DNA of 64,000 bases from Burkholderiaceae bacterium (lineage in GTDB: Bacteria; Pseudomonadota; Gammaproteobacteria; Burkholderiales; Burkholderiaceae_A), in NCBI GenBank assembly GCA_004214155.1, contig SGYQ01000001.1, forward strand, positions 124,001 to 188,000, read 5' to 3'. Below, piece by piece: positions 21,094-40,762 of the stretch. The position numbers were made by a program, and so were the translations under genes. Under the pieces are notes generated by a model that did no database searches, was not told the DNA's origin, and saw only the letters and a program-made list of their open reading frames with translations. Each line of letters opens with the position of its first letter. The first letter of the stretch is position 1.

Positions 21094-21112
21094 AAAAAAA
21101 AAAAAAAAAAAA
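21094..21112. repeat. A19 homopolymer in the trxA/ffs intergenic region
   Basis: Direct reading: aac(a)19gaaatc. Confidence 0.9.
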
Positions 21113-21134: not shown

Positions 21135-21229
21135 TAGCGGGCTTATTGCATTACTTAAAATGTCAATCTGGTCAGGTCGGAAACGGAGCAGCCAAGGCAA
21201 TTGATGGTAAGTGTAAGTGTAGCCCGCAC
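21135..21229 (+). ncRNA. ffs: Small bacterial signal recognition particle RNA (4.5S)
   Basis: Conserved apical core GGTCAGGTCGGAAACGGAGCAGCC (21170-21193 area) flanked by complementary ends GCGGGCT (21137-21143) / AGCCCGC (21221-21227); upstream of dnaX. Confidence 0.88.
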
Positions 21230-21251
21230 AGTTAATCAAAGGAGAGCAAAA

Positions 21252-22874
21252 ATTTCATATACGGCGTTAGCTCGTTCATTGCGCCCGAACAAGTTTGCAT
21301 CGGTCGTTGGCCAAGAATTAGTTGTAAGGGCTTTAACTTACTCAGTAAGGTTGGGAAATATGCACCATGCGTATTTGTTAACCGGAGGAAGGGGTGTCGG
21401 AAAAACAACCTTGGCGAGGTTGATAGCGAAAGCTTTGAATTGCGAACGTCCTGAAAATGGGGATTGCTGTGGCACATGTAACAGTTGCAAAAACATTGAG
21501 GAAGGGTCTTTTTTAGATGTAATTGAGCTTGATGCTGCTTCAAATAGGGGAGTTGAAGAGATCCAGGCGTTCTTTGAGCAACTTCGTTATCCTCCATCAT
21601 TAGGAAAAATGAAAGTAATAATAATTGACGAAGTACACATGTTAAGTAGTCATGCTTTCAATTCGATGTTGAAGACGCTTGAGGAACCTCCGAATTACGT
21701 TGTTTTCGTCTTAGCAACCACGGAACTCAATAAGGTGCCATTAACGGTGGTATCGCGGTGTGTAAAATTTAGTTTGCAAAACATCTCCACCAGTAAAGTT
21801 CACGACTATTTAGTTACCGTTTTTGAAAAAAAGGATATCAAGTTTGATGATGATGCGCTTGAGCCAATAGCCTCTGCTGCTTCTGGAAGCTTGCGAGATG
21901 CACTATCTATTTCTGAACAAGTAATTGCCGTATCAGGGGATAAGTCTATCGCACTGTCCACAGTTTTTGAGATTTTGGGTTTGATATCGAGCGAAACTTT
22001 AGAAAGTCTAGTTGCGGCTATTGCTAAAAACGATGTAGCGGAAGCTTTAAAAATCTCAAACGAAGCTCTGAGCAAAGGAGCATCTGCTGAAACAATTCTT
22101 GATCAACTAGCGACTGTTTTCCATAAAATTTGCCAAACAAAAATTTTAAATTCTGTTGGAGAGGGAGAAGCAGGGAATGTTGTAATAGCAGACGAAATGC
22201 CTGTGACAGAAACGGACGCTAATCTGTTTTATCAGATATGTATACTAGGAAAGAGGGATCTGCATTTAGCTCCAAATGAGTTAGTCGGATTACAAATGAC
22301 TATTCTTCGCATACTAGCCTTTCTCCCTGAAAGACCTTTTTTTCAAAAAAAAAAATCGATAGAGACAAATTCTCGTGACCATGTTATCTCAGGCGAAGGG
22401 GATGTTGATATGACTGAGAGCTCTGCGTCGGACGGTGAAAAGTGCATTTCTGTTGATGTGGGTAGTTCTTTGGGAATGCTATTCAGGAAAGTAGACACCA
22501 CCACATGGCCTCATTTTGTAAAAAGATTAGGGGGTAATGGACTAGTAAAGCAGTTTTTATCGCAATCAGAATTAGTGAGCATTAGCTATGCAAAATCTAG
22601 TTCTGTATGCCTTATAAAAATTGACTCTTCATTTCTCATGGATTCGGATTTAGTGAAAAAAGTGAATTTTTATGTTTCAGATAAAATAGGTGAAGCAGTC
22701 GAATTCAAAACAAAGTTTTTTGATGAAGTCGAGTCATCTCTTTTAATGATTGAAAAAGATGAAAAGGAAAAATCAATTAATGAAGCCTATGCAAAAATTT
22801 CTAAATCCGAGGTGGTTAACGCTTTCATCAAGCGATTTGATGGAAAGGTATTAAGAGAATCGATAAAAAATTGA
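21252..22874 (+). CDS. dnaX: DNA polymerase III subunits gamma/tau; ORF track starts at 21201 inside ffs, likely start ATT 21252
   Basis: AYLLTGGRGVGKTTLARLIAKALNC, zinc Cys set CCGTCNSCKNI, VHMLSSHAFNSMLKTLEEPP; family N-terminus (I/M)SYTALARSLRPNKFASVVGQ. Confidence 0.95.
   Translation: MSYTALARSLRPNKFASVVGQELVVRALTYSVRLGNMHHAYLLTGGRGVGKTTLARLIAKALNCERPENGDCCGTCNSCKNIEEGSFLDVIELDAASNRGVEEIQAFFEQLRYPPSLGKMKVIIIDEVHMLSSHAFNSMLKTLEEPPNYVVFVLATTELNKVPLTVVSRCVKFSLQNISTSKVHDYLVTVFEKKDIKFDDDALEPIASAASGSLRDALSISEQVIAVSGDKSIALSTVFEILGLISSETLESLVAAIAKNDVAEALKISNEALSKGASAETILDQLATVFHKICQTKILNSVGEGEAGNVVIADEMPVTETDANLFYQICILGKRDLHLAPNELVGLQMTILRILAFLPERPFFQKKKSIETNSRDHVISGEGDVDMTESSASDGEKCISVDVGSSLGMLFRKVDTTTWPHFVKRLGGNGLVKQFLSQSELVSISYAKSSSVCLIKIDSSFLMDSDLVKKVNFYVSDKIGEAVEFKTKFFDEVESSLLMIEKDEKEKSINEAYAKISKSEVVNAFIKRFDGKVLRESIKN
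22345..22355 (+). other. A11 slippage-prone tract in dnaX at the domain III end
   Basis: CAA AAA AAA AAA TCG; -1 frame stops at TGA 22376-22378, +1 frame stops at TAG 22360-22362. Confidence 0.75.
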
Positions 22875-40082: not shown

Positions 40083-40762
40083 ATGCCAGACTTAAAAAAA
40101 AAAATGCAGCCTACGCTGCTGTAAAACATATCGGTGACGGTTGTTTTCTTGGGGTAGGAACAGGATCAACCGTAAACTTTTTTATTGAAGCTTTAATTAT
40201 ATCGGGTAGACGTTTAAGCGGGGTTGTCACAACATCTAAACAAAGTGAGGAGTTGCTTATAAAAGGAGGATTCAACCCCATGCCACTTGCAGAAGCAAAA
40301 CATCCTTTGGATGTTTATGTGGATGGAGCTGATGAGGTAGATCCGAGATTTAATCTGATTAAGGGAGGGGGCGGTGCATTAACATCAGAAAAAATCGTAG
40401 CTAATAACGCAAAGAAATTTATTTGTATTGTGGACGAAAGTAAATTAGTGCAAAAACTTGGCAAGTTTCCGATCCCGGTAGAAGTGATTACCTCTGCAGT
40501 GCCGTCAATATCAAGAATTCTTAGAAATGATTACAATGCGATTCCTCGGGAGCGAGAAGGTTTTACGGTGCACAGAAATAGGATTATTGATGTCGCTGGA
40601 TTGGAAATCGAAAGCCCTGAAAACCTGGAGGAGGAATTAAATCAAATACCAGGTGTCGTAACAGTCGGACTGTTTTCCAAAATTAAGCCATACTCATGCC
40701 TTGTAGGATATGATGAGGAGGCAAAGGAGATTTTTAAAGAAGATGTAACAAATAAATTATAA
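40083..40762 (+). CDS. rpiA: Ribose-5-phosphate isomerase A, frame interrupted at an A11 tract (40094-40104); uninterrupted body continues in frame of ORF 40253..40762
   Basis: ATG 40083 MPDLKKK then -1 to NAAYAAVKHIGDGCFLGVGTGSTVNFFIEAL...TSKQSEELLIKGG...DVYVDGADEVDPRFNLIKGGGGALTSEKIVA. Confidence 0.88.

Follow-up and report, generated by a model that had tools for sequence, protein, structure and literature searches.

The window, that is the whole stretch of 64,000 nucleotides that was analysed, contains on its plus strand the gene dnaX (21252..22874), encoding the gamma/tau subunit of DNA polymerase III, which reads in the 0 frame as 540 amino acids up to the stop codon TGA at 22872-22874. 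The product scored 388.7 bits against the model TIGR02397 (dnaX_nterm, cut-off 250) and matched the Pfam domains delta', lid and gamma3. The apparent start codon on this strand is ATT at 21252, with the Shine-Dalgarno sequence AGGAG at 21240-21244 and a spacing of 7 nt. An ATT or ATC codon is found at this position in six congeners, including the genome of the window itself (G000), and in G005 and G006 the usual start codons are ruled out by a stop that lies in frame a few codons further upstream. Here and below G001 to G007 are the congeners of G000, all of them draft assemblies, and counts out of seven refer to the genomes with dnaX, G000 included. Directly 5' of dnaX and on the same strand lies a small SRP RNA gene (21135..21232; RF00169, 59.4 bits), and 3' of it there are ORFs readable as ybaB and recR. 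A run of 19 A is also present between trxA and the SRP RNA gene (21094-21112), and the same place is occupied by A19 in G006 and by A22 in G002.

The first part of dnaX (21252..22341, plus strand) encodes the clamp-loader domains I-III and would be common to the long and the short products described below. Residues 1-363 can be aligned with the gamma/tau structures of E. coli (1jr3_A, residues 2-363, E 3.8e-91), which agrees with the preliminary description of this DNA, where the end of domain III had been placed at the A-run. The last part (22356..22871, plus strand) would belong to tau only and comprises a linker and a part that weakly matches the alpha-binding domain V of tau (PF12170, E 0.0044, under the gathering score); a homologous region is present in the congeners. 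The candidate slippage site is an uninterrupted run of eleven A (22345..22355, plus strand, codons 365-368), placed directly after the end of domain III and about 68% along the gene. The number of A and the frame CAA AAA AAA AAA TCG are exact in the sequence, as had been described, and the 0 frame continues from there to the full tau. Both shifted frames end where they had been said to end. A TAG at 22360..22362 (plus strand) is the predicted stop for transcripts with A10 or A13, whose product would finish in QKKNR after 369 or 370 amino acids, and a TGA at 22376..22378 (plus strand) is that predicted for transcripts with A12 or A9, or for a ribosomal -1 shift, with a product finishing in KIDRDKFS after 374 or 375 amino acids. 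The predicted short products correspond almost exactly to domains I-III, and their expected mass is about 41 kDa, compared with about 60 kDa for tau.

The explanation that we favour, and which is likely to be the right one judging from the sequences compared, is that the A11, at the gamma/tau boundary of dnaX, serves as a slippage site and that slippage of the polymerase yields a gamma-like subunit. RNA polymerase would slip on the A11 and produce a mixed pool of dnaX mRNAs. Those with 11 A (or 11 plus or minus three) would be translated into the full-length tau of 540 amino acids, and the others would meet a stop after a few more codons, giving a gamma-like protein of 369-375 amino acids. This protein would retain the clamp-loader domains I-III and be devoid of the C-terminal region that binds the helicase and the polymerase. 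We infer that slippage takes place in G000, mainly during transcription, and that the gamma-like protein has a function. Cassettes of another gene with A11, A9 and A7 gave 63, 40 and 10% of frameshifting in E. coli, respectively (PMC3711429), and these published values make the A11 plausible as a strong site. Slippage of the E. coli RNA polymerase on A11 is cited in PMC6260861, a paper according to which this enzyme slips less on A runs than on T runs. A hairpin upstream of the run (CTTTC...GAAAG, in G000 and G006) was considered as a stimulator of slippage and rejected, as it is unconserved in G003 and G001.

Runs of A10-A14 were found at the dnaX junction in six of the seven congeners with dnaX: A11 in G000 and G003, A10 followed by G in G002 and G006, A10 in G001 and A14 in G005. 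There is no A-run at the junction of G004, the assembly of G007 has no dnaX, and in the sister genera g2 and g3 the junction run is absent. Conservation of the run length had been set against synonymous AAG in relatives; six genomes keep the long run, G004 has none, and G002 and G006 are the only ones to read exactly A_AAA_AAG, the heptamer of the E. coli ribosomal shift. The junction run of the congeners sits in a fast-changing linker. Compared with the window, G003 shows 70% identity over the DnaX protein and 56% over the DNA of the linker, and the A11 and the TAG were nonetheless retained. The shifted-frame TAG after the run is preserved in G002, G006 and G003, in the last of these although the overlapping codons went from Ile-Glu to Val-Gly. 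In G005 the 0 frame of the A14 gene ends in KKKK* at 398 amino acids and the tau half is intact in the frame corresponding to A13; because the tau half is in another frame, tau would need slippage in this genome if the run length of the MAG is correct. Both dnaX layouts, the single ORF and the two ORFs, are therefore found within one genus. Other long runs also occur within dnaX. The gene of G004 contains A10 and A9 at codons 482 and 502, closer to the Thermus position, where slippage would remove part of domain V. A second A10 is present at codon 192 of G002 and G003, where the gene of the window has A7; slippage there would give only a useless fragment of about 200 amino acids, so such runs appear to be partly tolerated.

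A similar arrangement was searched for more widely with a pattern that requires nine consecutive A within about 66 nt of the end of domain III. In the order it matched 20 of 399 genomes and in the class 15 of 369, both counts being lower bounds, as runs farther off or behind a different motif escape. The matches clustered by family, in the order in family f49 (10/11), genus g44 of family f42 (4/4) and family f47 (2/2), and in the class in families f117 (3/3), f162 (2/2) and f125 (2/2). Family f49 is GC-rich and its 16S sequences share 95-96% identity with records of Variovorax and Comamonas. The assignment of the order to Burkholderiales (in the GTDB sense) is based on a comparison of the 16S of two GC-rich relatives with plasmid records, G000 having no 16S in its assembly. 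In this family A9 or a longer run stands at the dnaX junction in 74 of 151 genomes and 70 of 141 genera, the domain-III motif alone being recognised in 125 genomes. Among the 38 loci that were read, the run is exactly A9 in 37 and A10 in the other, the phase being the same in all, and stops follow in both shifted frames, after 4-9 codons for A minus 1 and 5-14 codons for A plus 1. The cassette consists of G(A)9 and then mostly C-T/A-C-TGA. In eight f49 genomes AAA represents 9-43% of the lysine codons (less than 25% in six of them), and neither strand of the 30-60 kb read has any run of A9 or more apart from that in dnaX. The probability of the run given the amino acids is 0.002-0.10 in these eight genomes and that of a matching stop pair by chance 0.002-0.027 in f49 genomes, values that cannot be freely multiplied owing to shared ancestry. 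As AAA is usually the minority lysine codon in f49, selection acts here on the nucleotides, and synonymous sites across dozens of genera, going by these comparisons, would not persist in this way by drift. The proposal that tau and gamma may be produced by slippage is thus supported by the A10-A14 kept in six of seven congeners and by the A9 selected in f49.

A gamma-like product could also be made as in E. coli, by ribosomal -1 frameshifting on A_AAA_AAA or A_AAA_AAG, and this we consider unlikely. In-frame heptamers do exist, and G002 and G006 contain the E. coli one; G000 has no in-frame A_AAA_AAG at its run, which reads A_AAA_AAA_AAA_T. Only one tRNA-Lys, with the anticodon UUU, was found among the 30 tRNA genes of G000, a genome that is 87% complete. 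This situation has been linked to shifty decoding of AAG (PMC5009743), and with a single tRNA-Lys the argument for transcriptional slippage that is drawn from two tRNA-Lys fails here. Moreover G001, alone among the congeners, has an SD-like sequence, AAGGAGGG, touching its run, where the fold is weak. Against a ribosomal shift, in G000 no Shine-Dalgarno-like stimulator was found within 25 nt upstream of the run and no stable stem-loop 5-6 nt downstream of it (-3.4 kcal/mol, z -0.8), whereas the same test on E. coli dnaX detected the SD AGGGAG at -16 and a hairpin of -18.0 kcal/mol (z -2.4). Neither an SD-like sequence nor a stable 3' hairpin was detected by this test in G002, G003 and G006, and an E. 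coli-type hairpin was found in no congener, which is in accordance with the earlier view that no E. coli-type element is required. The loci of f49 also have no SD, and their downstream folding is mostly unremarkable for the composition (z 1.5 to -2.2). A heptamer requires only 7 nt but the runs in the genus have 10-14, and f49 retains the full A9 although AAG is its preferred lysine codon. It retains in addition a stop in the +1 frame, which is of no use to a -1 shift, and where stops are kept in both directions, slippage of the polymerase is a better explanation than a ribosomal shift, which goes one way only. If it occurs, slippage in G000 is probably mainly transcriptional, rather than ribosomal.

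It is more improbable still that the run arose by chance because the linker is rich in lysine and the genome in AT, with slippage as incidental noise. AAA accounts for 72% of the lysine codons of G000, and with the amino acids fixed the linker of each congener has a probability of 0.19-0.49 of containing A10 or longer, so the codon-level signal for the run within the genus seems modest to moderate. The A10 at codon 192 in two congeners also speaks for chance. The A11 had been regarded as unusually long for a run inside an ORF; it is the sole run above A10 in the called ORFs of the 216-kb G000 contig, but the window has a second A11 at 40094-40104. In addition, when the synonymous codons of all the contig's proteins were reshuffled, about two runs of at least A11 were expected, one being observed, and for this reason the length of the dnaX run alone is unsurprising. 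The stops within about ten codons in the shifted frames, to which weight had been given, are present but tell little, as both frames are stopped within 10 codons at 37% of random codon positions of this AT-rich genome; as an argument for slippage in G000 they were abandoned after this null. It is the position of the run, rather than its length, that exceeds chance. Approximately 0.004 runs of A10-A14 are expected per 150 nt of junction per congener, and six of the seven have one. In the seven genomes 18 coding runs of A10 or longer were found in 682 kb, and half of them (9) are in dnaX, six of these at the junction, the sample for G003, G004 and G005 consisting of their dnaX contigs only. With only the larger samples (G000, G001, G002 and G006), dnaX contains 5 of 12 such runs in about 1% of the sequence. 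These homopolymer statistics cover 216 kb of G000 and, for six congeners, parts of the genome. The strongly selected A9 at the same site in GC-rich relatives is a further point against chance. Finally, a replication-slippage hotspot (phase variation or drift), with lengths differing within the population and some cells having gamma only, could account for the A10-A14 of the different species and for the out-of-frame G005 but is highly improbable, as tau is in frame in four close congeners, f49 has exactly A9 in 37 of 38 loci, and the loss of tau is expected to be harmful to the cell from what is generally known of the replicase.

The second A11 of the window (40094..40104, plus strand) marks a frame break at the 5' end of rpiA (40083..40762, plus strand). 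The ATG at 40083 and the body of RpiA are in different frames and are linked only across this run: the gene begins ATG CCA GAC TTA and the body (KNAAYAAVKHIGDG...GTGSTV) is read in another frame. The frame of the body is closed by a stop 4 codons ahead of the run and offers no ATG, GTG or TTG before codon 49. The downstream part matches RpiA models only from position 70 onward, as expected if the N-terminal third precedes the start at codon 49. The same A11 with the same break is found in G002 and G006, that is, in three species with separate assemblies, and given this agreement the full RpiA would need one A more, two A fewer, or a ribosomal -1 shift. Elsewhere rpiA is in frame (G005, G001 and G007), or off by one but with an in-frame upstream ATG (G003). 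As a candidate, rpiA would be a gene that depends on slippage for its expression as a whole, and its break would represent independent, indirect support for A11 slipping in the G000 lineage. In G001 an A10 on the minus strand of contig C7 (about 162479-162488) is followed by an open frame of 604 codons whose first ATG, GTG or TTG is 36 codons downstream; it is possibly another frame-broken gene.

Slippage of dnaX is already known from Thermus, and it is the breadth of its distribution that is new to us. We lean slightly towards a broader reading, according to which dnaX slippage would be a common selected system across gamma/betaproteobacteria and not a Thermus oddity, with an exact A9 and stops in both shifted frames in at least 70 genera of a GC-rich family of the order and A10-A14 in the AT-rich genus of the window, and according to which rpiA too would need slippage on its A11. 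The breadth in the GC-rich relatives is a more interesting outcome than the dnaX run of the window itself. In the literature covered no report of such a distribution of dnaX A-runs was found, subscription papers being mostly outside it, nor any specific report of dnaX slippage in Xanthomonas or Acidovorax. A plasmid collection queried with the dnaX of a relative returned distant matches only. It is still debated whether bacteria beyond a few models need the gamma subunit and by what route they produce it, and a conserved cassette in many culturable genera would open this question to ordinary genetics. Moreover, lineages would differ in how one gene family arrives at one and the same product, some using polymerase slippage and others ribosomal frameshifting, and selection would be able to hold a homopolymer at exactly nine A against codon bias.

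Like dnaX of Thermus thermophilus (PMC1088944, PMC5009743), the gene of the window has a sense-strand A-run of at least nine with tau in the 0 frame, stops nearby in both shifted frames and no need for ribosomal stimulators. It differs in having A11 instead of A9, a run which in Thermus yields 50% gamma (PMC1088944), and in the single tRNA-Lys found, compared with two in Thermus. The position also differs, since the run lies at about 68% of the gene and not at seven-eighths, and the short product would consequently end right after domain III. With E. coli dnaX it shares a site at about two thirds of the gene length and a predicted product of gamma size, but it is without the SD AGGGAG and the 3' stem-loop, has a run of 11 in place of A_AAA_AAG, and has stops in both shifted frames. 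The two-ORF dnaX genes with 9-10 As of the GeneTack clusters (PMC3711429) have the layout shown by G005 with its A14, whereas dnaX of the window is a single ORF with the tau half in the frame of the gamma half. The long coding A-tracts and the AT-rich genome are also reminiscent of the homopolymer-frameshifted genes of Blochmannia (PMC3017870), and rpiA of the window resembles a frameshifted gene of this type. In Blochmannia the frameshift of dnaX lies downstream of the gamma site (PMC3017870), whereas dnaX of the window is in frame.
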